A stretch of DNA of 51,083 nucleotides from Oscillospiraceae bacterium (GTDB lineage: Bacteria; Bacillota; Clostridia; Oscillospirales; Ruminococcaceae), in NCBI GenBank assembly GCA_021202155.1, contig JAJQDP010000019.1:1-51083 (forward strand), in the 5' to 3' direction. Made by a program: the position numbers and the translations under genes. Below the pieces are notes generated by a model. The model was given only the letters and a program-made list of their open reading frames with translations. It was not told the origin of the DNA and searched no databases. Of the stretch, positions 16,774-32,305 are shown one piece after another (the first letter of the stretch is position 1; each line of letters starts with the position of its first letter).

Positions 16774-17820
16774 TCAGATATTCAGATACCCCTTCAATAC
16801 TTTCAGAGTATTCATAATGCCGTCGACATGGCTTCTTTCATAGCCGTGGCTGGCGTAAACTCCTGCTCCGATAAGTCCGTGGCGGATGTCATAGCCTGCT
16901 CTCAGCGTTGCCTCAACGTCTGAGCCATAATGAGGGTAAACATCAACAGCATAGTCCGCACCCTCTTTTTTGGCGGCGGCTATAAGCTTTGAAACTACCT
17001 GATAGTTGTAAGGCCCACCTGAGTCCTTGGCGCAGATAGAAACCTGTCTCTCAGTACAGGTGAGTCCGTTTCCTACGCAGCCCATGTCTACGCTTATAGC
17101 TTCTGTAACGCCCTCGGGAACAGAGCCCGAGCCTCCATGCCCGACCTCTTCGTAAACGGTAACGTGAACATAGGTCTTCCTCGGGAGCTTGATGCCGTTG
17201 TCAGCAATATACTTCGCAAAGCCCAAAAGAATTCCAACTGAAAGCTTGTCATCCAAAAATCTTGACTTGATATATCCCGACTGAGTCAGCCGCGTTCTCG
17301 GCTCAAAGCAAACAATGTCGCCGACTTCGATGCCGAGCTTCTTAACGTCATCAGCTGAGCTCACATTCTCGTCAATGACGACCTCCATCGTGTCGAAGCT
17401 TCTCTTGGTGGAGTGGTATTCTCCGTTGACATGAACGCTTGCGTTACAAAGCTGGAGTGCACCCTCATAGACAAACTGCTCACGAGTGTAAATTCTCACA
17501 TTCTCCGCCTCGGCATTGTTTGCCTCCATTCCGCCAAGGTTGGTTATCTTAAGCCTTCCTGAGCCGGTAATTTCACAGACCATCCCTCCAAGGGTATCGG
17601 TGTGTGCCTCCAAAAGCAGGGCATCATCCTTGCTGACACCGCCCAAATCAGCGATAACTCCGCCTTTTTCGGTGATGGTAGCCTTGAATCCCAAGCTCTC
17701 GAATTCATCTTTTACCCAAGACGCGGCTCTTTCGGTGTAACCGGAAGGGCTGTCTATTGCTAAGAGCTCGAAGGTCTTGTTTCTTGCATAGTCGCGATAT
17801 TTAGTGTCCATTTCTGGCAT
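16774..17820 (-). CDS. M42 family metallo-aminopeptidase
   Basis: 348 residues, cytoplasmic. M42 motifs: LLLEAHTDTLG (metal His and Asp), SRFLDDK (bridging Asp), YEEVGHGG (catalytic Glu pair), SVDMG and a C-terminal SHGYERSH. M42 enzymes form dodecameric shells and trim short peptides; they are often misannotated as endoglucanases. AAGGAG lies 8 bases before ATG 17820. It starts 21 bp after the glycosyltransferase gene ends and is probably the third gene of the plsY operon, though its link to lipid synthesis is not obvious. Confidence 0.9.
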   Translation of the reverse strand: MPEMDTKYRDYARNKTFELLAIDSPSGYTERAASWVKDEFESLGFKATITEKGGVIADLGGVSKDDALLLEAHTDTLGGMVCEITGSGRLKITNLGGMEANNAEAENVRIYTREQFVYEGALQLCNASVHVNGEYHSTKRSFDTMEVVIDENVSSADDVKKLGIEVGDIVCFEPRTRLTQSGYIKSRFLDDKLSVGILLGFAKYIADNGIKLPRKTYVHVTVYEEVGHGGSGSVPEGVTEAISVDMGCVGNGLTCTERQVSICAKDSGGPYNYQVVSKLIAAAKKEGADYAVDVYPHYGSDVEATLRAGYDIRHGLIGAGVYASHGYERSHVDGIMNTLKVLKGYLNI

Positions 17821-19910: not shown

Positions 19911-20612
19911 ATGGGTAGCTATAACGTGCTTATTTGCGATGACGAGCCGGACATTGTGAACGCTCTCAAGATATATCTTAAAAACGAGGACTACGATTTC
20001 TTTACAGCCGGAAACGGCAAGGAAGCCTTGAGAATCCTTCACGATGAGAAGATAGACCTGGTTCTCATGGACATCATGATGCCTGAGATGGACGGAATCA
20101 AGACTCTGAGCGAGCTGAGAAGCTTCTCGAATGTCCCCGTAATCTTCCTGACGGCAAAATCCGAGGACACCGACAAGGTGTTGGGACTTAATATAGGTGC
20201 TGATGACTATGTCACTAAGCCGTTCAACGCTGTTGAGCTTACCGCCCGAATCCGCTCTCAGATTCGCAGATACACGCTCTTAGGAAGCGCGCCTGTAAGT
20301 CCTGACACTCTCAAGATAGGCGGGGTGCAGATAAGATATGAGGACAAGCAGGTGACAGTTGACGGTGAGGTTGTATCTCTCACTCCAAAGGAATACAGCA
20401 TTTTAAGATTTCTTATGGAGCATCCGGGCGAATGCTTTTCGCCTCCGGAGATATACCGTGCAGTCTGGGGAGATGTCCCGATAGGCGTCAACAACGCCGT
20501 CGCTGTACATATGCGGCACTTAAGAGAGAAGATAGAGATTGACTCTGCAGCTCCGAGATACTTAAAGGTTGTATGGGGAAAGGGCTATAAGTTTGAAAGA
20601 CCAAAAAATTAG
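19911..20612 (+). CDS. OmpR-family response regulator
   Basis: 233 residues. Receiver domain 1-120 with acidic pair DDE (10-12), phospho-acceptor Asp54 in LVLMDIMMP, FLTAKSE and the lysine of VTKPF. C-terminal winged helix (~135-231) with LTPKEYSILRFLMEHPGECFS and VHMRHLREKIE and the wing GKGYKFE. AAGAGG lies 8 bases before ATG 19911. The kinase starts 22 bp after its stop. Targets unknown apart from the likely self-control at the TCTTAAT repeats. Confidence 0.93.
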   Translation: MGSYNVLICDDEPDIVNALKIYLKNEDYDFFTAGNGKEALRILHDEKIDLVLMDIMMPEMDGIKTLSELRSFSNVPVIFLTAKSEDTDKVLGLNIGADDYVTKPFNAVELTARIRSQIRRYTLLGSAPVSPDTLKIGGVQIRYEDKQVTVDGEVVSLTPKEYSILRFLMEHPGECFSPPEIYRAVWGDVPIGVNNAVAVHMRHLREKIEIDSAAPRYLKVVWGKGYKFERPKN

Positions 20613-20634
20613 CATGAAAAGAGGGGATTATCTG

Positions 20635-23037
20635 ATGACCAGTGGCAAAAGAAAGCGGGGAAGACTCTGGGTAAAAGTGACGGCGTTTGTCTGCCTTGTT
20701 TTAGCGGCGGTGATATTTGCAGGCAGTGCCCTTGCCACAATTATTCTCTATTATAACGACGCCTACTATTTTGATAACTACACTATCATGGATGATTATG
20801 TCTCAAACGAAACCGAGCTCAAGAAGAATCTCACTGGGGTATATCTCTCGTGGTATGAGCCATACGGCTATTCTGCTGAGGCACTGGATGAGGCGGTTTT
20901 CTACGATTCGTATGACTACGAAACCTCAACCTATGATGCCACCGTTGGTTATAGCTATCTCTTTGATGATGAATTTATCGAATACTACGCCATCAACTAC
21001 GACGATTACGACGATATTTCTCCACTGTTCGGCTTTTACTATTACGACGGCGAGACGTCTATAGATTGGCTCGAAGAAATTTTCAGCGTTTCATATTCGG
21101 AGTCAGAAAATCTGATTGTTGAAGAAGACTTGGATAGCTTCGATGACTATATGGAGATATACTATTCCGAGGGAAGAACAAATTTCAGAATTGATGTCAG
21201 CGACACTGCCGGCGAAACCCTCTACTCCAATCACACGTCTATAGATGATGAGGATATTGAACTGACATCTTCATCGGAAGACTATACCGTCACCGTCATG
21301 GGCGAGCCGATGGTTATCGAGGTTATCACCTACAGTTATGAAGAAGCCGAAAGTTGCCTCAGCATGTTTTCAGAGCTCGACGACTTGGTTGAAGTATTAG
21401 GCTTTGAGATTTCGATAGATCAGGAGGAAGATGCTTTCAATGGCGAGATAATTTATTGCACCCATATCGTGCTCTCTCAGATTCTGTCTGAGACACTGAC
21501 CGTCACCGTAAGTCTGCCGTCATCGCTAAGTGATTTCACAGTTCATGATGATGTCTATATCAAGCTTACAAGAATCAATACACTCCTCAGTAACAAGGAT
21601 AATTTCATAATCCTTATGGTTATAACCGCAATAGTGGCACTTGTTTGCTTTATAGTACTCATGACGACAGCAGGACATTTTCAGGAATACGAAGGCATTC
21701 ATCTCACTCTTGCGGACAAAATTCCATTGGAGCTGTATCTGTTTCCGGTGGGTGCTGTGCTTTTCGGCTCTTTGTACATCGTCTCTGAAATTATCTATAT
21801 TGACCTTGAAGCAAGGTTGCTTCTATATCTGATTTTTGCTCTTTGTGCAGGAGCTTCGGCGGGAGCGGTTATGCTTGTCTTAATGACCTGCTCCGCAAGA
21901 GTCAAGACAAGGCGGTTCTTCAAGAATACGATCATCTGCGGCTCACTGATATGGCTTTTCGGATTCTTCAGAAAGCTCATCAGAAACCGCAAATATGCAA
22001 CAAAGCTTAAGTTTATCTTCATAGGCGTTCTGATATATGATTTCCTGTGCTTCTTGCTTTTGTTCAGCAACGCCTTTTTAGGGCTTCTCATGTTCACTGT
22101 AGGAAATCTTGCCGTGCTGATTGCGGCTCTCGTTTATGCCATGGGTGTAAGAAAGCATGAGGAAGCCGCCAAGGATATTTCCGAGGGCAAGACAGAGACT
22201 GTCGTCGACAGTGACGGGCTCTATTTCGGTCTCGGGAGCTTTGCTGGACACCTGAACAACATCAATGACGGGATTCAGGCGGCTGTAGACGAAAGCCTCC
22301 GCTCGGAAAGGCTCAAAACCGAGCTTATAACCAACGTCTCCCACGACCTGAAAACGCCGCTTACTTCCATCGTGAACTATGTCGACATCCTCTCAAAGGA
22401 AGACATCCAACCTGACAGTGCGAAAGAATATGTAGATGTGCTCGTTCGCCAGTCCCAGAGGATGAAGAAGCTTATAGACGATTTGGTAGAAGCCTCAAAA
22501 GCCCAAGCAGGAGCTATCCCCGTAACTCTTGAAAAGACGGATATGTCGATTCTACTTACGCAAGCTACGGCTGAATACGATGACAGACTTGAAGCGAACA
22601 ATCTCAAGCTTGTCGTTACGACTCCGGAAAAGCCCATGATGGCTCTTGTCGACGGAAGGCTGATGTGGCGTGTCTTCGACAACCTGATGGGAAATATTGT
22701 GAAGTACGCCCAGCCTGACACCAGAGTATACGTCTCAGCCGGAGAGACCGACGGCAAAATCCTGATAACCTTCAAGAACATCTCAAAGTACGAGCTCAAT
22801 ATCTCAAGCGACGAGCTCATGGAGCGATTCGTCAGGGGAGACTCCTCCCGCTCAACTGAGGGAAGCGGCTTGGGTCTTTCGATAGCAAAGAGCCTATGCG
22901 CTCTCAATAACGTTGATTTTAATATAATTATCGATGGCGACCTCTATAAAGCCGAGCTTTCGATGGATGAGCTTCCATGGGAGCCGAAACCGCCTAGTGA
23001 AGAAACGCTTCCAGCAATCGTTGTTGATACAGAATAA
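20635..23037 (+). CDS. Multi-pass sensor histidine kinase with acidic Tyr-rich ectodomain
   Basis: 800 residues from ATG 20635, chosen because AGAGGGG lies 8 bases upstream; the longer frame from 20569 overlaps the regulator gene. One helix (~10-37) leads to a ~285-residue extracellular domain extremely rich in Asp, Glu, Tyr and Ser. About six further helices follow (~320-520), then a DHp domain with NVSHDLKTPLTS (His570), an HATPase domain with N-box FDNLMGNIVKY and G-box GSGLGLSIAKSL. The C-terminus ends in a Pro/Glu tail. The ectodomain shows no recognised sensor family; acidity suggests binding of cations or cationic peptides. Terminator downstream. Confidence 0.9.
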   Translation: MTSGKRKRGRLWVKVTAFVCLVLAAVIFAGSALATIILYYNDAYYFDNYTIMDDYVSNETELKKNLTGVYLSWYEPYGYSAEALDEAVFYDSYDYETSTYDATVGYSYLFDDEFIEYYAINYDDYDDISPLFGFYYYDGETSIDWLEEIFSVSYSESENLIVEEDLDSFDDYMEIYYSEGRTNFRIDVSDTAGETLYSNHTSIDDEDIELTSSSEDYTVTVMGEPMVIEVITYSYEEAESCLSMFSELDDLVEVLGFEISIDQEEDAFNGEIIYCTHIVLSQILSETLTVTVSLPSSLSDFTVHDDVYIKLTRINTLLSNKDNFIILMVITAIVALVCFIVLMTTAGHFQEYEGIHLTLADKIPLELYLFPVGAVLFGSLYIVSEIIYIDLEARLLLYLIFALCAGASAGAVMLVLMTCSARVKTRRFFKNTIICGSLIWLFGFFRKLIRNRKYATKLKFIFIGVLIYDFLCFLLLFSNAFLGLLMFTVGNLAVLIAALVYAMGVRKHEEAAKDISEGKTETVVDSDGLYFGLGSFAGHLNNINDGIQAAVDESLRSERLKTELITNVSHDLKTPLTSIVNYVDILSKEDIQPDSAKEYVDVLVRQSQRMKKLIDDLVEASKAQAGAIPVTLEKTDMSILLTQATAEYDDRLEANNLKLVVTTPEKPMMALVDGRLMWRVFDNLMGNIVKYAQPDTRVYVSAGETDGKILITFKNISKYELNISSDELMERFVRGDSSRSTEGSGLGLSIAKSLCALNNVDFNIIIDGDLYKAELSMDELPWEPKPPSEETLPAIVVDTE

Positions 23038-23040
23038 AAA

Positions 23041-23069
23041 TGCACCGTCTGATTAAACAGGCGGTGCAC
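23041..23069. terminator. Bidirectional terminator, kinase and gap
   Basis: TGCACCGTCTG (23041-23051) pairs with CAGGCGGTGCA (23058-23068) with one wobble; a T-rich tail on the minus strand fits gap best. Confidence 0.8.
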
Positions 23070-23094
23070 TTTGCATTTGCATAAAAACTCTAAG

Positions 23095-24171
23095 TTATGC
23101 GAGCTCAGCGAAGTACTTGATAGTTCTGACCATCTGGCTGGTGTAGGAGTTCTCGTTGTCATACCAAGAAACTACCTGTACCTGATAGAGGTCGTCGGTG
23201 AGCTTAGCAACCATGGTCTGAGTAGCATCGAAGAGAGAACCGTATCTCATGCCGACAACGTCGGAGGAAACGATAGGATCTTCGTTGTAGCCGAAGGACT
23301 CAGAAGAAGCGGCCTTCATAGCGGCGTTGATGCCTTCCTTGGTGATGTTCTCGCCCTTGACAACAGCGGTGAGGATGGTGGTGGAACCGGTGGTAACAGG
23401 AACTCTCTGAGCGGAGCCGATGAGCTTGCCGTTGAGTTCAGGAATTACCAAGCCGATAGCCTTAGCGGCACCAGTGGAGTTAGGAACGATGTTAGCCGCA
23501 CCTGCTCTTGCACGACGAAGGTCGCCCTTGCGGTGAGGACCGTCCAAAATCATCTGATCGCCAGTGTAGGCGTGGATGGTGGACATGATACCGCTCTGGA
23601 TAGGAGCATAGTCGTTAAGAGCCTTAGCCATAGGAGCCAGGCAGTTGGTGGTGCAGGAAGCTGCGGAGATGATGGTGTCCTCAGTGGTGAGGGTCTTCTC
23701 GTTAACGCTGTAAACAACAGTGGGGAGATCGTTTCCTGCAGGAGCAGAAATAACAACCTTCTTTGCGCCAGCGTCGATGTGAGCCTGGCTCTTAGCCTTT
23801 GAGCAGTAGAAGCCGGTGCACTCGAGAACTACATCAACACCGAGCTCACCCCAAGGAAGCTCAGAAGCGTTGGGCTTTGCATAAATGGTGATTTCCTTGC
23901 CGTCAACGATGATAGCACCGGGAACTGTAACGGTCTTGCCGTCCTCAGCATAAACAGCGGGCTTAACGTCAACAGTGTGAGCGTTCTCGCCGATTCTTCC
24001 GCAGTAGCCGCCCTGAGCGGTATCATACTTGAGAAGATGAGCGAGCATCTCAGGCTTTGTGAGATCATTGATTGCTACGATTTCGTATCCTTCAGCACCG
24101 AACATCTGGCGGAAAGCAAGACGTCCGATTCTACCAAATCCGTTAATCGCAACTTTTACAGACTTAGACAT
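23095..24171 (-). CDS. gap: Glyceraldehyde-3-phosphate dehydrogenase, type I
   Basis: 358 residues, somewhat longer than the usual ~335. NAD-binding INGFGRIGR at the N-terminus, catalytic [12 protein letters not shown] with Cys173, substrate loop [20 protein letters not shown] and [13 protein letters not shown] at the C-terminus. Central glycolytic enzyme. GGAGG lies ten bases before ATG 24171. Monocistronic here, without pgk or tpi beside it. Confidence 0.96.
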
Positions 24172-24373: not shown

Positions 24374-26779
24374 TCATGATTTAGACTTCTTTCTTGTTGC
24401 CACAACTACAGTGATGACTGCAACTAATGCGACTGCGCCAACGATTCCAATAATAAGTGCCGCAGTTCTACTAGACATACCTGACGCAGTCGTGGTCAAC
24501 GTTGTCGTTGCTGTTTGCGAGCTTGCATCTGAACCTTTGTCGAGCATCATGCAATCAAGATAAAGAGTATCTGATAGCTTACTTGTCGATTTGAGCATAA
24601 TCGTATTTTCACCGCTGTCAAGAGAAATGTCGATTGTGTAGTAAGCCCAATCGCTTGTTGAGCCGGTTTTACTCATAGTAATGTTCGAGACCTTCTTGTC
24701 GTTCACATACAGCGCGAGCCCAGAGATATTGGATTTTTCAAGCAGGTATCGGATACTGAGGGTATACGTCCCCGAAGAGGTAACCGAAACTGTGTCCTTC
24801 ACGGAAGCACCCTTGGCAGTTCCGAAAACTAAGTAGCCCTGACCGTAGTAGTTGCTGATTCCTGTTCCATAGCCGCTCTTTACGTATTCAGTGATGCCCT
24901 TATAAGCATAGAATTCGGCTTCATACTGTCTTGTGCCTGTGTACTCGGGTGGGCTTTCAGGCTCGACGATAGTAGCGACATTGTAGTCTGTAGAACGGTC
25001 TGTGTTTGAACCACCGACGTTTATAGTTATGTCGATAGGACCATTATGAGCGACAGTAACAGTGAATACTCCGTTTTCATACTCGGTAGTGACAGTGCTT
25101 TCAGCCATGTTGATGCCGCGGTCGGTGTATGTGATGGTGGGCTCTTCTGAGCAACCGCTTATTACAATAACATCGTTCTTTTTGAGAAGAGGGCTGTTTT
25201 CGTTGTAATTGTTAAGGTATATTTCGAGGCTGTCCGAATATTCATTGATAATTCCTGTTGTATAGGTTGATAGAGTGAGTTCCATGCTGTCGGCTGTATT
25301 GTACTGGAAAGGAATTGTTCCGACTGCACTTTCACTGCTGTCTAATGGATTGTATACTACCCATGTGTTACCGTTCCGACCGGCATAGATATTTCCCGAG
25401 TATTCCTCCGGGAACAGTTCGTTGAATTCAGCTACCTTGTCCTCAATCGTCGCCCACCGTTCCGATATTTCCGATTGCAGAATCTGCACCTCGAACTGCT
25501 CCGCTACATCATCCGCAAGAGCATATACAGTGGGAATTGTCGGGTAACGTCCCGTAGGCTTGTAGAAGTTATGGTTATCAGAAAGATTTCCGTCATCATC
25601 CTTCTGGTACAAGCCTTCAAAGAGGGTGGGGTAGGTGCTGTATTTATCGTCATCAGAACCGGTTTCGACATCCTGAATGATTACTAATTTAGTATTTGCG
25701 ATAACCTCCTCGCGAGTCGGAATGCGGATAGCACCTTCCAAAATCTTGCGGAACATGTCCGTCACGACATTCGTAAATTGCGTGTATGACGACCATTGTC
25801 GCTCGGTGTAACCATCGTCGTCGACTGTCGCATCGTCCTCATAAAAGTCATCCTGCCAGATAAGCTCGGGACCGTCGATAACTGTTGCACCCGATTTAAG
25901 GTAGGTTTCAAGCATTACAGCAAGTCCGGTCGACTGTGTGAATGGTACCGACCCGTCCCAGCCGGTTTCATCATACCTGACGCCGAAGTTACCGCAATAG
26001 CCGGCGAGATACGTTCCAAGTACTATACTCTCCATGTCCTGAATATAGCTGGTTGAGGTGTACTTCTGGCATAGGATGAAGTTCTCAGTGTAGTCAAGGC
26101 AAGCCTGTTCAAATTCAGGCACTTGCTTTATCATCGCAAGAGGATTGATGGCAGAAACCCACTTGTTTCCGCACCAGCTTACAACCAAATATCCTCCGTA
26201 CTTGTTGCAAAGTTCAAGGAGATTTGCAAAGTGCTTGTATCGCTCTTCTCCAGTTAATCCTGCCTCAGTGTAGCCCCAGAACTGCTCGCAGTAGTTGAAG
26301 CCCAAGAAGTTCGGATAATCAACGAAGAACTCTTCAAAAATAGTTCCCTCAAGGCTTGAATCGGGATAGTCGGGGAAGTGTGACCTTCCTCCGCTTGAAG
26401 GCTGAATAAGAGTCCATACGCCTCTTTCGGCGCATGTTCTCAGCCATGATTTTGCAGTTTCATAGCCGTCCTCGACCAATGTCCATTCGTGTGTGGTAGA
26501 GTCCCAGCTTACCGAAAGGGAGATATTGAAGACAACATACGGGAGAACATCTTCCGGAATCAGGTCTATTATCTTGTCGGGGTCGGGATAGTTCCAGGTG
26601 TCGATGTGTACAATCCACATAGGCGACTCGGTCGAGACAACCCGGCGGAGTGTCCCATCAGTTGATACAGTTGTACTTGCTTCGCTTGACGTGCTTCCGT
26701 CGGCAATAGTAGCGATGGGAAGAGCACAGAGCATTAAAGCAATTGTTACGAGCCAGGCTATTATTTTTTGAAGTTTCAT
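24374..26779 (-). CDS. GH98-type glycoside hydrolase, copy A, membrane-anchored
   Basis: 801 residues from the second ATG (26779), which has the same 8-bp spacing to AAGGAG as copies B and C; the first ATG is at 26782. Signal peptide 1-26. Catalytic GH98-like barrel ~45-345 (SPMWIVHIDTWNYPDPDKI, PSSGGRSHF, NYCEQFWG with Glu165, VIDGPELIW with Asp302/Glu305). C-terminal GH98 beta domain ~400-620 (GRYPTIPTVYAL to NGPIDITINV). CBM35/6-like beta-sandwich ~640-765 (YEAEFYAY to DTLYLDCM). Thr/Ser linker, one helix and RKKSKS tail, hence outer-surface anchored. GH98 members are endo-galactosidases on blood-group glycans or xylanases; the target here is unknown and catalytic residues are tentative. 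Confidence 0.82.
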   Translation of the reverse strand: MKLQKIIAWLVTIALMLCALPIATIADGSTSSEASTTVSTDGTLRRVVSTESPMWIVHIDTWNYPDPDKIIDLIPEDVLPYVVFNISLSVSWDSTTHEWTLVEDGYETAKSWLRTCAERGVWTLIQPSSGGRSHFPDYPDSSLEGTIFEEFFVDYPNFLGFNYCEQFWGYTEAGLTGEERYKHFANLLELCNKYGGYLVVSWCGNKWVSAINPLAMIKQVPEFEQACLDYTENFILCQKYTSTSYIQDMESIVLGTYLAGYCGNFGVRYDETGWDGSVPFTQSTGLAVMLETYLKSGATVIDGPELIWQDDFYEDDATVDDDGYTERQWSSYTQFTNVVTDMFRKILEGAIRIPTREEVIANTKLVIIQDVETGSDDDKYSTYPTLFEGLYQKDDDGNLSDNHNFYKPTGRYPTIPTVYALADDVAEQFEVQILQSEISERWATIEDKVAEFNELFPEEYSGNIYAGRNGNTWVVYNPLDSSESAVGTIPFQYNTADSMELTLSTYTTGIINEYSDSLEIYLNNYNENSPLLKKNDVIVISGCSEEPTITYTDRGINMAESTVTTEYENGVFTVTVAHNGPIDITINVGGSNTDRSTDYNVATIVEPESPPEYTGTRQYEAEFYAYKGITEYVKSGYGTGISNYYGQGYLVFGTAKGASVKDTVSVTSSGTYTLSIRYLLEKSNISGLALYVNDKKVSNITMSKTGSTSDWAYYTIDISLDSGENTIMLKSTSKLSDTLYLDCMMLDKGSDASSQTATTTLTTTASGMSSRTAALIIGIVGAVALVAVITVVVATRKKSKS

Positions 26780-26822
26780 CATAAGATCTCCTTTCGCAAG
26801 ACCAAAAAGTATTTGTGCAATT

Positions 26823-26893
26823 ATTATATAGAAATCGGCAATTCAAGTCAAGAGTTTATAGCTATTAGACAAAAAACTCTAATTTTTAGACTA
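26823..26893 (-). promoter_or_regulatory. Promoter and palindromic operator of GH98 copy A
   Basis: Minus strand TTGACT (26846-26851), 17-bp spacer, TATAAT (26823-26828). A 28-bp palindrome lies upstream at 26866-26893: half TAGTCTAAAAATT, centre AG, half AGTTTTTTGTCTA (10 of 13 paired). Almost identical to copy B. Confidence 0.85.
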
Positions 26894-26920
26894 TATTGAC
26901 TTGTGAAATGTCTAACATAA

Positions 26921-26949
26921 AGAAAACCGCACCAGTTACCCCGGTACGG
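26921..26949 (-). terminator. Terminator of spoIIID
   Basis: Minus strand CCGTACC pairs with GGTGCGG (plus 26943-26949 and 26927-26933) followed by TTTTCTTT. It insulates GH98 A from spoIIID. Confidence 0.75.
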
Positions 26950-26961
26950 CTTATATTGACT

Positions 26962-27231
26962 TCAGCGGTGATGCATTGCCGCCATCTCGTATTTCCTTTT
27001 GGTGGCTTCTCCGCCCCTTATGTGCCTTTCCTTCTTGTTGATGTCAAGAATGACCTTGACCTCTTGGTATAGTGACGGCTCTACTTTTTGCAATCTGTCC
27101 GACACGTCTTTGTGGACTGTGGATTTGCTGATCCCGAACTCTTTTGCCGCCTGTCGGACGGTCGCCCTGTTTTCAACTATGTATTCGCCTAAAATAACAG
27201 GACGTTCTCTGTCTCGTGGTATTTCCGTCAT
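26962..27231 (-). CDS. spoIIID: Sporulation transcriptional regulator SpoIIID
   Basis: 89 residues closely resembling SpoIIID of Bacillus: VILGEYIVENRATVRQAAKEFG, then FGISKSTVHKDVSDRL (helix-turn-helix), EVKVILDINKKERHIRGGEATK and a basic tail. SpoIIID binds DNA in the mother cell after engulfment and adjusts the sigma-E and sigma-K regulons. It shows that the lineage encodes sporulation. ATG 27231 has a GGGAGTGAG-rich leader; no clear sigma-E promoter was recognised. The location between two divergent GH98 genes is unusual, since it is more often beside mreB or spoIIQ; it has its own terminator. Confidence 0.95.
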   Translation of the reverse strand: MTEIPRDRERPVILGEYIVENRATVRQAAKEFGISKSTVHKDVSDRLQKVEPSLYQEVKVILDINKKERHIRGGEATKRKYEMAAMHHR

Positions 27232-27360
27232 AAGCTCACTCTCACTCCCAATTGCTTTATAATAATGTATATTACAAGCCTTGGGAAAATAGAAGCAGAT
27301 TTCTCGTTAAAGACTGTATATAGCCGAAATTATTGCTGTTAGCCATAATAAAAGTTTGTG

Positions 27361-27431
27361 TAGTCTAAAACTTAGAAGTTTTTGTCTAATAGCTATAAAC
27401 ACTTGACTTAAATTGCCGATTTCTATATAAT
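27361..27431 (+). promoter_or_regulatory. Promoter and palindromic operator of GH98 copy B
   Basis: TTGACT 27403-27408, 17-bp spacer, TATAAT 27426-27431. The 28-bp palindrome at 27361-27388 is TAGTCTAAAACTT, centre AG, AAGTTTTTGTCTA, with 11 of 13 positions paired. Its 3' end lies 14 bp before the -35. Confidence 0.87.
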
Positions 27432-27477
27432 TATTACACAAATACTTGGAACAGCTTATCTGAAAGGAGATACTGTT

Positions 27478-29721
27478 ATGAAATTAGCTAAAATTTTCGC
27501 CCTGATTATCGCAATTGCAATGCTTGCATGTGTGCTTCCGATTTCAACTGTTGTAGTCGAAGCATCTTCAAGCAGTTCAGGCACAGCTTCGTCAGACGGA
27601 ACACTCAGACGCGTTGTCTCATCCGAATCGCCGATGTGGATAGTGCACATTGACTCCTGGAACTATCCCGATCCGGATGCAATAATTGACCTGATACCGG
27701 AGGATGTCCTTCCTTACGTCGTCTTTAACATTGCACTTTCCGTCAGTTGGGATTCGGAAACTCACGAATGGTCATTAGTCGAGGACGGCTATGAAACCGC
27801 AAAATCATGGCTCAGAACCTGTGCCGAAAGGGGAGTCTGGGCGATGATTCAGCCGTCAAGCGGAGGCAGGTCACACTTCCCGGACTACCCCGATTCAAGC
27901 CTTGAAGGTACTTTTTTTGAAGAGTTCTTCGTTGATTATCCGAACTTCTTGGGCTTCAACTATTGTGAGCAATTCTGGGGATATAGCGAAGCAGGAGTGG
28001 ATGTAGAGGACAGATACAAGCATTTCGCCAATCTTTTGGAGCTCTGCAACGAGTATGGCGGGTATCTGGTAGTAAGCTGGTGCGGAAACAAGTGGGTCTC
28101 CGCTATCAATCCTCTTGCGATGTTAAAGCAGGTTCCCGAGTTTGAACAGGCTTGCCTTGACTACACTGAGAACTTCATCCTCTGCCAGAAGTACACTTCG
28201 ACCAGCTATATTCAGGACATGGAGAGTATAGTCCTTGGAATGTATCTTTCGGGATACTGTGGAAACTTCGGTGTCAGATATGACGAAACCGGCTGGTCAG
28301 GTTCTACAGAATTTACTCAGTCAACCGGGCTGTCAGTCATGCTTGAATCCTTCCTTAAATCGGGAGCAACTGTTATTGACGGTCCTGAACTTACATGGCA
28401 GGACGATTTCTATGAGACTTCCACAAGTAAGGACTCAGATGGTTACAGCGAAAGGCAGTGGGAATCGTACACACAATTCACGAATGTCGTGACCGACATG
28501 TTCAGAAAGGTTATAGAGGGTGCAATCTGTATTCCGACGCGTGAGGAGGTTATCGCCGATACAAAAGTAGTGATTATCCAGGATGTTAGCTCTGGGTCTG
28601 ACGATAACAAATACAGCACCTATCCTACTCTTTTCGAGGGTTTGTACCAGAAAGATGATGACGGAAATCTCACAGATAACCATAATTTCTACAAGCCTAC
28701 GGGACGCTACCCGACGATTCCAACTGTATATGCTCTTGCAGATGACATAGCCGAACAGTTTGAGGTGCAGATACTGCAATCGACAATATCAAGGCGATGG
28801 TCGTCGATTTCAAAAAAGGTTGCGGAGTTTAATGAGCTTTTCCCGGAGGAATACTCAGGAAATATCTATGCCGGTCGGAACGGGAATACATGGGTGGTTT
28901 ATAACCCTCTTGATACCGGTAAGAAGGCGACAGGAACGATTCCGTTCCAGTATAATACTGCAGACAGCATCAAGCTCACTCTATCCACCTATACCACAGG
29001 TATAATCAACGAATACGCGGACAGCCTTGAAATTTATCTCAACAACTATGACGAGAATAATCCCACTACAAGGACAACAGATACAATCGTTATAAGTGGC
29101 TGTTCAGAGAAACCGACAATTACTTACAATAACCGTGGAGTTGACACAGTTTCGAGTATCGTTTTAACCAGCTATAAGGATGGGGTCTACACTGTAAAGG
29201 TTTCTCACAACGGTCCTATCGATATAACCATAAATGTCAGTGGCTCAAATACTGACCGTTCAACCGATTACAATGTATCAAACATCGTAGAACCTGAGAG
29301 CCCGCCAACATACACCGGCGACAGACAGTATGAAGCTGAGTTTTACGCATACAAGAACATCAGCAAAGTAGTAAAAAACGGTGCCAGCTACGACATCAGG
29401 AACTACTATGGTCAGGGGTATCTTATATTCGGAACCAAGAGCGGAGCATCTGTCAAGGACACAGTTTCGGTCAACAGCTCCGGTACATATACCTTGAACA
29501 TCAGGTATCTTCTTGAAAACTCCAATGTCTCCGGACTAGCACTGTATGTGAACGGTAAGAAGGTTTCAACAATTTCGCTGAAAAAGACGGGGTCTGCCAG
29601 TAATTGGGACTACTACACGATTGATGTGCCTCTTAATTCTGGCGAGAATACAATCACACTTACTGCTACGAACAAGCTTGCAGATACTCTGTACCTTGAC
29701 TGCATGATAATCAGTGGATAA
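27478..29721 (+). CDS. GH98-type glycoside hydrolase, copy B, unanchored
   Basis: 747 residues; ATG 27478 eight bases after AAGGAG. Same domain order as copy A: signal peptide 1-30, GH98 barrel (SPMWIVHIDSWNYPDPDAI, NYCEQFWGY, VIDGPELTW), beta domain and CBM-like sandwich. It stops at TAA 29719-29721 right after the CBM (DCMIISG), so it lacks linker and membrane helix and should be released. The reading frame continues for 43 more open codons after the stop. Relative to copies A and C the barrel is conserved, and variation is mainly in surface positions and the CBM. Substrate unknown. Confidence 0.82.
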   Translation: MKLAKIFALIIAIAMLACVLPISTVVVEASSSSSGTASSDGTLRRVVSSESPMWIVHIDSWNYPDPDAIIDLIPEDVLPYVVFNIALSVSWDSETHEWSLVEDGYETAKSWLRTCAERGVWAMIQPSSGGRSHFPDYPDSSLEGTFFEEFFVDYPNFLGFNYCEQFWGYSEAGVDVEDRYKHFANLLELCNEYGGYLVVSWCGNKWVSAINPLAMLKQVPEFEQACLDYTENFILCQKYTSTSYIQDMESIVLGMYLSGYCGNFGVRYDETGWSGSTEFTQSTGLSVMLESFLKSGATVIDGPELTWQDDFYETSTSKDSDGYSERQWESYTQFTNVVTDMFRKVIEGAICIPTREEVIADTKVVIIQDVSSGSDDNKYSTYPTLFEGLYQKDDDGNLTDNHNFYKPTGRYPTIPTVYALADDIAEQFEVQILQSTISRRWSSISKKVAEFNELFPEEYSGNIYAGRNGNTWVVYNPLDTGKKATGTIPFQYNTADSIKLTLSTYTTGIINEYADSLEIYLNNYDENNPTTRTTDTIVISGCSEKPTITYNNRGVDTVSSIVLTSYKDGVYTVKVSHNGPIDITINVSGSNTDRSTDYNVSNIVEPESPPTYTGDRQYEAEFYAYKNISKVVKNGASYDIRNYYGQGYLIFGTKSGASVKDTVSVNSSGTYTLNIRYLLENSNVSGLALYVNGKKVSTISLKKTGSASNWDYYTIDVPLNSGENTITLTATNKLADTLYLDCMIISG

Positions 29722-29853
29722 ACCATTGATAGTGGCAATAGCAGCGGAAGCGGTGAAATCGTCAGCAAAACAGCTAAAGAGACTGCAGTTGAGATAAATG
29801 CTCCTCTTGAGCAGTTTTATGCTAAACCGGAAACTGAAAATGCCGTGACTTAG
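29722..29853 (+). pseudogene. In-frame tail behind the stop of GH98 copy B
   Basis: After TAA 29719-29721 the same frame stays open for 43 codons to TAG 29851-29853. It begins TIDSGNSSGSGE, a Ser/Gly linker like those before surface anchors, and ends KPETENAVT. It does not match the helical tails of copies A and C. Probably a remnant of a former C-terminus cut by a nonsense change or by the duplication that made copy C. Confidence 0.5.
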
Positions 29854-29856
29854 CCC

Positions 29857-29885
29857 TTGACTAAACTTCACAATTTCTATATAAT
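29857..29885 (+). promoter_or_regulatory. Promoter of GH98 copy C, without the palindrome
   Basis: TTGACT 29857-29862, 17-bp spacer, TATAAT 29880-29885. From the -35 to the start codon it aligns with copy B, but the sequence just upstream is the tail of copy B and no palindrome is present. Confidence 0.82.
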
Positions 29886-29932: not shown

Positions 29933-32305
29933 ATGAAATTAAAAAGAATCGTATCATGGATAATTGCACTTGCACTGTTACTCTATGCTCTTCCTGTTGC
30001 GACAATTGCCGATGAATCTGCATCGAGTGAAACGAGCTCAATCACGACTTCGGACAGCAATTTGCGCCGTGTCGTCTCTACCGAGTCGCCGATGTGGATT
30101 GTACATATCGACACCTGGAACTATCCCGACCCGGATAAGATTATAGATTTGATACCCGAGGATGTCCTTCCTTATGTCGTCTTCAACATCTCGCTTTCGG
30201 TAAGCCGCGATGATGATGGGACATGGAGCCTTGTTGAATACGGATATGAAACAGCAAAATCATGGCTGAGGACCTGTGCTGAAAGAGGCGTCTGGGTGAT
30301 GGTTCAGCCGTCAAGCGGCGGATTTTCTCACTTCGAAGACTACCCCGACTCAAGCCTTGAGGGAACCCTTTTTGAAGAATTCTTCGTCGACTACCCGAAC
30401 TTCTTAGGCTTCAATTACTGCGAGCAGTTCTGGGGCTTCAGTGATGCAGGAGTAGAACCGACGGACAGATACAAGCATTTCGCCAATCTTTTGGAACTCT
30501 GCAACAAGTATGGCGGATATTTGGTAGTAAGCTGGTGCGGAAACCAGTGGAGCGCGTCGATAAATCCTCTTGCAATGATAAAGCAAGTTCCCGAATTTGA
30601 ACAGGCTTGCCTTGACTATACCGAGAACTTCATTCTCTGCGAGAAGTACACACAAACCAGCTACATTGCGGATATGGAGAGCATTTGTCTCGGAACATAT
30701 CTATCGGGCTACTGCGGAAACTATGGCGTTCGCTATGACTCATCTGGATGGACCGGTGCGATTCCTTTCACTCAGTCAACAGGACTTGCTGTCATGCTCG
30801 AACGTTTTCTTAAGTCAGGAGCAACAGTAATTGACGGTCCTGAGCTCATCTGGGAGGATGATTTCTATGAAACTGTTGCGACTGTTGATGACGACGGCTA
30901 CACCGAGCGACAATGGGCGTCATATACGCAGTTCACGAATGTCATCACGGATATGTTCCGAAAGGTTCTTGAGGGTGCTATAAGAATTCCTACCCGTGAA
31001 GAGGTCATCGAGAACACCAAGGTGGTCATAATTCAGGATGTCGAAACCGGTTCTGATGATAATAAATACAGCACCTATTCGACGCTCTTTGAGGGGCTAT
31101 ACCAGAATGACTACGACGGCAGTCTCAGTGAAAACCACAGTATCTACAAATCCACAGGACGTTATCCGGCAATTCCGACGGTATATGCTCTTGCGGATGA
31201 TGTAGCGGAGCAGTTCGAGGTGCAGATTCTGCAATCGGAAATATCTGAACGATGGGCGACAATTGAAGATAAAGTGGAAGAATTCAACGAGCTCTTCCCG
31301 GAGGAATACACCGGAAATATCTATGCCGGTCGTAATGGAAATACATGGGTTGTATATAATCCGCTGAAGAGCAGTGAAAGTGCAAACGGAACAATTCCAT
31401 TCCAGTATAACACTGCCGACAGCATTGAGCTCACCTTGTCAACCTATACGACCGGAATCATAAATGAATATGCTGACAGTGTTGAGATATATCTCAATAA
31501 CTATGATGAAAACAGCGTTCTTCTCAAGAAGAAGGATACAATCGTAATAAGTGGTTGTTCCGAAGAGCCGACCATCACGTATACCGACAGGGGAATAAAT
31601 ACCTCCGAAAGTACCGTTACGACCGAATATGCAAACGGCGTATTTACTGTCACAATAGCGCATAACGGTCCTATCGACATCACGATAAATGTAAGTGGCT
31701 CGAATACCGGTCGCTCAACCGACTATAATGTGGCTACAATAGTCGAGCCTGAAAGCCCTCCTGAATATACCGGTGACAGACAGTATGAAGCAGAGTTCTA
31801 TGCATACAAGGACATAGTCGAGTACGTAAAGAACGGCTATGGCAAGGGAATCAGCAACTATTATGGTCAGGGCTACCTTGTTTTCGGGACTGCAAAGGGT
31901 GCGTCCGTGAAGGACACAGTATCTGTAAACTCTGCAGGAACATACACTCTGAATCTGAGATACCTGCTTGAAAATTCAGATGTCTCCGGGCTTGCGCTGT
32001 ATGTCAACGGCAAGAAGGTTTCAAACTTGGAGCTTGAAAGCACCGGTTCAAAGAGCGAATGGGATTACTACACAGTCGATGTATCTCTCAAGAAGGGCGA
32101 AAACACCGTCATGCTCAAGGCTACAAGTGAGCTTGAGGACACACTCTATCTTGACTGCATGATAATTGATGGAGATGCAGTGTCGGTTTCCGGAGGATCA
32201 ACTATGTCCACGGGAGTGGCGATTGCAATTGTAGGTGTTGTGGCTGTGATTGCAGTCGTTGCGGTTGTTGCTGTGATAATCATCACAAGAAGAAAACAGG
32301 AATAA
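29933..32305 (+). CDS. GH98-type glycoside hydrolase, copy C, membrane-anchored
   Basis: 790 residues from ATG 29933 (AAGGAG, 8-bp spacing); the in-frame ATG at 29900 lies about at the transcription start and is excluded. Signal peptide 1-26, GH98 barrel (SPMWIVHIDTWNYPDPDKI, PSSGGFSHF, NYCEQFWGF, VIDGPELIW), beta domain, CBM-like domain, then VSVSGGSTMS linker, one helix and RRKQE tail. It is closer to copy A in the anchor and beta domain. Tandem duplicate of copy B or A with its own promoter core; ended by a strong terminator. Confidence 0.82.
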   Translation: MKLKRIVSWIIALALLLYALPVATIADESASSETSSITTSDSNLRRVVSTESPMWIVHIDTWNYPDPDKIIDLIPEDVLPYVVFNISLSVSRDDDGTWSLVEYGYETAKSWLRTCAERGVWVMVQPSSGGFSHFEDYPDSSLEGTLFEEFFVDYPNFLGFNYCEQFWGFSDAGVEPTDRYKHFANLLELCNKYGGYLVVSWCGNQWSASINPLAMIKQVPEFEQACLDYTENFILCEKYTQTSYIADMESICLGTYLSGYCGNYGVRYDSSGWTGAIPFTQSTGLAVMLERFLKSGATVIDGPELIWEDDFYETVATVDDDGYTERQWASYTQFTNVITDMFRKVLEGAIRIPTREEVIENTKVVIIQDVETGSDDNKYSTYSTLFEGLYQNDYDGSLSENHSIYKSTGRYPAIPTVYALADDVAEQFEVQILQSEISERWATIEDKVEEFNELFPEEYTGNIYAGRNGNTWVVYNPLKSSESANGTIPFQYNTADSIELTLSTYTTGIINEYADSVEIYLNNYDENSVLLKKKDTIVISGCSEEPTITYTDRGINTSESTVTTEYANGVFTVTIAHNGPIDITINVSGSNTGRSTDYNVATIVEPESPPEYTGDRQYEAEFYAYKDIVEYVKNGYGKGISNYYGQGYLVFGTAKGASVKDTVSVNSAGTYTLNLRYLLENSDVSGLALYVNGKKVSNLELESTGSKSEWDYYTVDVSLKKGENTVMLKATSELEDTLYLDCMIIDGDAVSVSGGSTMSTGVAIAIVGVVAVIAVVAVVAVIIITRRKQE

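Follow-up and report, generated by a model that had tools for sequence, protein, structure and literature searches.

GH98 genes, core promoters and upstream elements in the window

The window, which is the whole stretch of 51,083 nucleotides that was analysed, contains three GH98 genes around spoIIID. Gene A (24374-26782, minus strand) matches Pfam Glyco_hydro_98M/C, with a weak CBM6-like match, and its product ends in a hydrophobic stretch and a basic tail. Gene B (27478-29721, plus strand) and gene C (29933-32305, plus strand) belong to the same family by Pfam; an anchor-like C-terminal tail is present in A and C and absent from B. The third copy, C, was missing from the original prediction, which described a divergent pair. 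The spoIIID gene (26962-27231, minus strand; family by Pfam) sits between A and B, and a terminator-like hairpin (26952-26924) lies 3' of it. The order of genes for a response regulator, a kinase and GAPDH beside this locus (19911-24171) is conserved in G029 (L065 15-4292), one of the 31 genomes of the genus compared here, and the block of spoIIID and GH98 A is inverted in the window relative to G029.

All three GH98 genes have the same core promoter of sigma-A type, TTGACT-17-TATAAT, at 26823-26851 (minus) for A, 27403-27431 (plus) for B and 29857-29885 (plus) for C; those of A and B match the consensus at 11/12 positions. The promoter scan alone is no evidence, because it gave three promoter-like sites against 1.9 in shuffled sequences. 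Two 28-bp blocks, at 26866-26893 (minus) and 27361-27388 (plus), share a sequence that has no other exact match in the window (0.00 expected from 100 shuffles) or in the 2.25-Mb genome. They end 14 bp 5' of promoters A and B, so the shared block upstream of each -35, as first described, is indeed there. Near-identity over about 85 bp had been reported around it; the inverted repeat spanning both promoters is longer, 118 nt (26807-26924 and 27330-27447, 84% complementary), and the unit that can be aligned across relatives is 65 bp.

This 65-bp upstream element lies at 26852-26916 (minus) for A, with its 3' end at the -35, and at 27338-27402 (plus) for B; their profile scores are 64.6 and 65.5 bits, respectively, both being training sequences of the profile. 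Each copy contains a distal unit TAGTCTAAAA (26884-26893 minus in A, 27361-27370 plus in B) and a proximal unit TTGTCTAATA (26863-26872 minus in A, 21 bp from the distal unit; 27382-27391 plus in B). The element was not found before GH98 C, where the tail of B occupies the upstream side, and it seems that the element of C was displaced by this tail. The stop codon of B is TAA at 29719-29721, after which the frame is open for 43 codons up to a TAG at 29851-29853, which ends 3 bases 5' of the -35 of C.

Conservation and repeat structure of the element

The comparison material consisted of six genomes with this GH98 subfamily and five element sequences. Among scattered matches to the search pattern (up to 3 mismatches) in the 31 genus genomes, the element precedes the single GH98 gene of G001, G027 and G029. 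In these three genomes the gene comes after spoIIID, and in every one of the four genomes with the element, spoIIID and the element are neighbors. The five sequences (A, B, G001, G027 and G029) align without gaps over 65 columns, 36 of which are invariant. Across three species the fraction of invariant columns in the element (0.62) is only a little above that in the preceding terminator region (0.56), but higher than in the leader (0.35). Between A and B the element is 80% identical over 65 bp and about 93% identical over columns 23-63 (a 41-bp core), and the core promoter is 93% identical. By the terms of the original prediction, mere drift after a recent duplication would have refuted it, and this is not the case. 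The two coding sequences agree at only 42% of 262 fourfold-degenerate sites, and the element is kept in three relatives with a single GH98 gene. Fourfold identity among the species and paralogs that carry the element is 37-48%, where the figures for G027 are approximate since its row ran past the stop codon; the version used for the tree ended at the stop. The protein tree joins A and B as sisters (support 99/96) and places C with the single GH98 proteins of G001 and G027 (100/99), of which it is the ortholog (94% and 93% amino acid identity, the G027 figure again approximate). The position of A and B outside the other six has a support of 84/88, with long outgroup branches. As judged by these divergences, the A/B duplication is old.

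The element is better described as a head-to-tail repeat than as a palindrome. The direct repeat TWGYCTAAAA recurs with a period of 21 bp, abuts the -35 and is kept in the relatives, with 7 or 8 of 10 bases identical between the two units in all five sequences. The statistics were made on A, B, G027 and G029, and G001 was left out as a near-copy of G027. In a column-shuffle test 21 was the best period at window lengths of 8, 10, 12 and 16; this period itself was matched by 0 or 1 of 300 shuffles, and the best over all periods by 2, 9, 20 and 5 of 300, respectively. The clearly repeated part is about 10 bp, and at length 16 the period of 21 is still the best (10.25/16). A repeat with a period of 30 bp, noticed by eye, was weaker and was discarded. 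The -35 falls in the next 21-bp register (TTGACTTAAA in B), with a mean match of 6.1/10 against a background of 3.0 (sd 1.0). The last base of the proximal unit's 21-bp cell directly precedes TTGACT; the cell abuts the -35 without overlap. The pattern of the repeat pair (up to 3 mismatches) has five overlapping matches in the window, all in this array, against 0.11 expected; this shows uniqueness and is not an independent proof, because the pattern was drawn from the same sequences. The palindrome originally proposed did not survive the comparison: its arms match at 8/10 positions in A and B and only at 5/10 in G001, G027 and G029, while the direct repeat persists there. Moreover, palindromes in the aligned elements were no better than those in shuffles, of which 38, 30 and 7 of 60 were as good at arm lengths of 8, 10 and 12.

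A search of the genus for a wider regulon, suggested at the outset, was run with a profile of the element and none was seen. Among the 31 genomes the strong matches were the five building sequences only (64.5 to 68 bits, E about 1e-17); a sixth strong site was absent, the next best match having E 0.076, and 24 of the 31 genomes had some match at E <=10. In 247 genomes of the family, under stricter filters, four matches with E 0.0016-0.0057 were obtained besides the two sites of the window, against about 2.5 expected. Weak matches at eleven places were inspected and taken as chance. Several of them are inside genes, two orthologous ones (G000:C46 and G024:C29) lie 5' of a small gene for an HTH protein that neighbors an integrase-like gene, and one (G043) lies before a gene that by eye resembles PTS genes. 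At the sensitivity of this search, the element is specific to GH98.

A candidate AraC-type regulator

The regulator was originally placed outside the window, and the best candidate is an AraC-type protein encoded on other contigs of the genome (G000:C17:68312-69199, with a second copy at G000:C5:22864-23727). Two regulator families, AraC and LytTR, were surveyed. The census of AraC proteins in 10 genomes gave 55 proteins in 12 clusters, and one cluster alone occurs in exactly G000 (two copies), G001, G002, G006, G027 and G029. Among the 31 genomes this subfamily (at least 73% identity) is represented by seven proteins in six genomes; 14 further genomes have matches of 30-36% and 11 have none. 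The GH98 subfamily (at least 78% identity to B) occurs in the same six genomes, other GH98 loci reaching at most 60%. These six genomes do not form a clade in a species tree of three other AraC families covering 10 of the 31 genomes: four changes are needed, of which at least two are forced. Therefore, gain or loss of the regulator went along with that of the enzyme on more than one occasion.

In G002 and G006, where the element is absent, GH98 is the last gene of the AraC operon. Divergent from the AraC gene are genes for a xylose-isomerase-like protein, a Gfo/Idh oxidoreductase, a secreted protein and a solute-binding-like protein, followed on the same strand by GH98, which in G002 starts 38 bp after the preceding gene. 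In G029 (L186 10680-12645) the isomerase-like frame next to the AraC gene has a normal start and within about 90 bases joins the end of the Gfo/Idh gene of G002, as compared by eye; it looks as if most of the two genes had been deleted. In another genome (G026:C29, L061 731-1588) a more distant AraC protein (30% identity) is encoded directly upstream of a GH98 gene. In other genomes, 9 of 50 GH98 loci have an AraC-type domain in their flanks against roughly 1.5 expected (from 6 per 2.2 Mb), an excess that is suggestive only, as this rate may not fit other phyla.

The promoters of the AraC subfamily itself share a 46-bp block consisting of a 16-bp direct repeat, again with a period of 21. None of 500 shuffles was as good at length 16, but 58 of 500 were at length 10, which is not significant. 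The profile of this operator finds 11 sites in the same six genomes, eight of which were used for building, and the next match is no better than E 0.015. The three new sites are at G002:C66:5389, G006:C11:229531 and G000:C24:16912. The last one (16912-16950 minus, L267 2913-2951, E 5e-6) precedes a gene for a large secreted protein with InlB-type repeats, which is possibly a further member of the AraC regulon.

The profile of the AraC operator (AAGTCGGATTTTGTGTAGTTGC...) gives no match in the GH98 elements, where its score reaches 3.4 bits at most; its best local match there is a 10-base exact TTTGTGTAGT at 27355-27364, in B only. In reverse, the profile of the GH98 element finds nothing in eight loci of the AraC regulon. 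The half-site profiles of the two are no more alike than column-shuffled ones, as 1156 of 2000 shuffles in the best alignment and 671 of 5000 in the fixed register were as similar. The operator and the element share the period of 21 and GTC at the same place. Taking the co-occurrence and these comparisons together, we regard the GH98-linked AraC subfamily as a serious candidate for the regulator of the element, with a chance somewhat short of even. How it might do so is more speculative. One AraC regulator could read two operator dialects of the same 21-bp geometry, its own GTCG...TGTGTNG and the GH98-only GTCTAAAA. The second dialect would keep GH98 genes outside the AraC operon in the regulon and, with the -35 in the next register, occupancy could switch from activation to blocking. 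We consider this version rather unlikely.

Interpretation and comparison with known systems

The reading that we favor, at about even confidence, is that the element is a tandem activator site of AraC/XylS type for GH98 genes. Two head-to-tail half-sites (TWGYCTAAAA plus a less conserved flank), spaced every 21 bp or two helical turns, would place two protein subunits on one face of the DNA beside the -35, where they could contact RNA polymerase in the manner of AraC/XylS-type activators. The element would then set the expression of those GH98 genes that have their own promoter beside spoIIID. We infer that it binds a protein and serves activation rather than repression. The likeliest class of regulator is probably AraC/XylS, and the likeliest single candidate would be the subfamily at G000:C17:68312-69199. 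Copy C, having lost the element, may be expressed at a basal level or by read-through from B. Of the activator or looping repressor originally envisaged, the upstream placement fits the activator; looping across spoIIID need not be invoked, as genomes with one GH98 gene have the element but no partner copy. A poor -35 is usual in promoters activated by AraC. The -35 and -10 of the GH98 promoters are near consensus, which counts against activation of AraC type.

Several other explanations should be weighed. A true palindromic operator, recognized by a symmetric dimer of LacI, GntR or TetR type that acts either from upstream or through a loop joining A and B, would account for the matching arms in both copies, and a smaller perfect inverted repeat, TCTAA-N3-TTAGA, is seen by eye inside both of them; with the symmetry at shuffle level, arms matching at only 5/10 positions in the three single-copy relatives, and no second site for looping in those genomes, we hold it improbable. 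A more substantial, though still minor, share of the probability goes to another regulator that reads direct repeats. This could be a response regulator, of LytTR type or not, or an AraC protein that does not belong to the GH98-linked subfamily. That the operator of the AraC candidate differs in sequence speaks for such a regulator. LytTR sites are direct repeats of about 9 bp with a period of about 21 bp upstream of the -35, so that the spacing fits, but the GTT of their consensus is absent from the element (a weak test, made by eye). Besides, each of the 10 genomes surveyed encodes LytTR proteins, whether it carries GH98 or not (18 matches in all, counted without clustering by sequence). A response regulator of OmpR type and a kinase are encoded in the window (19911-23037), in a place kept in G029; OmpR-type sites usually repeat every 10-11 bp, a period that is not supported in the element, and nothing was found tying the response regulator (19911-20612) to it.

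It is also conceivable, but unlikely, that no regulator is involved and that the promoter is simply made stronger by an A/T-rich UP element or by A-tracts phased at a distance of two turns. The sequence directly upstream of the near-consensus -35 is A/T-rich and the relatives have A-tracts 21 bp apart; against this, G26, C28, G47 and C56 of the alignment are invariant, and in A and B the second A-tract is broken while GTCTAA stays. Far less probable is control of the neighboring genes by SpoIIID during sporulation. Its gene lies between A and B and borders the element in all four genomes, and the proximal unit, read as its reverse complement (TTAGACAAAA in A/B, TTAGACAAAC in G001/G027), fits the SpoIIID consensus WWRRACARNY at 9 or 10 of 10 positions by eye. 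But this consensus is weak and uninformative (the window has 18 perfect matches, fewer than the 31.9 expected, and the element has none), the promoter is sigma-A-like, and the strength of such a site leaves the direct repeat unexplained. We give equally little credit to mere inheritance, in which a functionless element came along when the gene was copied, or was kept uniform by conversion between the arms of the inverted repeat. Both promoters do lie within one inverted repeat, and recent conversion between A and B is possible because the identity of their elements exceeds that between species. Nevertheless, the conservation between species holds without conversion, and the element, unlike the leader, is kept across species and paralogs at 37-48% fourfold identity.

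For a family of GH98 genes in uncultured gut Ruminococcus-like bacteria, the analysis provides a defined cis-element together with a few candidate regulators. The locus with three copies is a natural experiment, where the element is present at A and B and absent at C, whose core promoter is the same. Correcting the palindrome also matters in practice, since it would have steered a DNA pull-down to the wrong families of regulators.

The enzymes align over their full length to the structures 9h6f/g/h (E about 1e-219 for B and 1e-216 for A); their match to blood-group GH98 structures is only weak (E 8e-23 to 1e-10). In A, B and C alike, the putative catalytic residues Glu and Asp are 105 positions apart. 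In the GH98 xylanase of Bacteroides ovatus, the distance from Glu361 to Asp467 is given as 106 (a passage of PMC4491172). Xylan may therefore be taken as no more than a lead for the substrate. A GH98 operon of Ruminococcus gnavus is reported to be induced on mucin (in the part of PMC8730463 concerned), which resembles our case in that GH98 is under transcriptional control in a gut Firmicute. It differs in that GH98 is one of 10 operon genes there, whereas the window GH98 has its own promoter and element; the enzymes are also distant (E 3e-11). Among the matches listed in a full-text literature search, to which subscription literature is mostly external, no description of a GH98 operator was found, and those with both GH98 and AraC concern R. 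gnavus; in one of them (PMC3808388) the AraC protein belongs to the nan cluster.

Among known operators, the tandem sites of LytTR regulators (AgrA and ComE type) are short direct repeats like the element, which lacks their GTT-bearing consensus. The sites of AraC and XylS have a 21-bp period. XylS is described as binding two 15-bp direct repeats, each made of an A box and a B box (a section of PMC5481539), and AraC as binding araI1 and araI2 and recruiting the polymerase (a section of PMC4760080). The likeness to araI1/araI2 and to the class II site of XylS at Pm lies in two half-sites of the same direction next to or over the -35. On the other hand, the GH98 element differs from both in sequence, clear repetition is confined to its A-box-like part, it lies directly next to a near-consensus -35 without reaching into it, and its AraC-type regulator is a candidate only.
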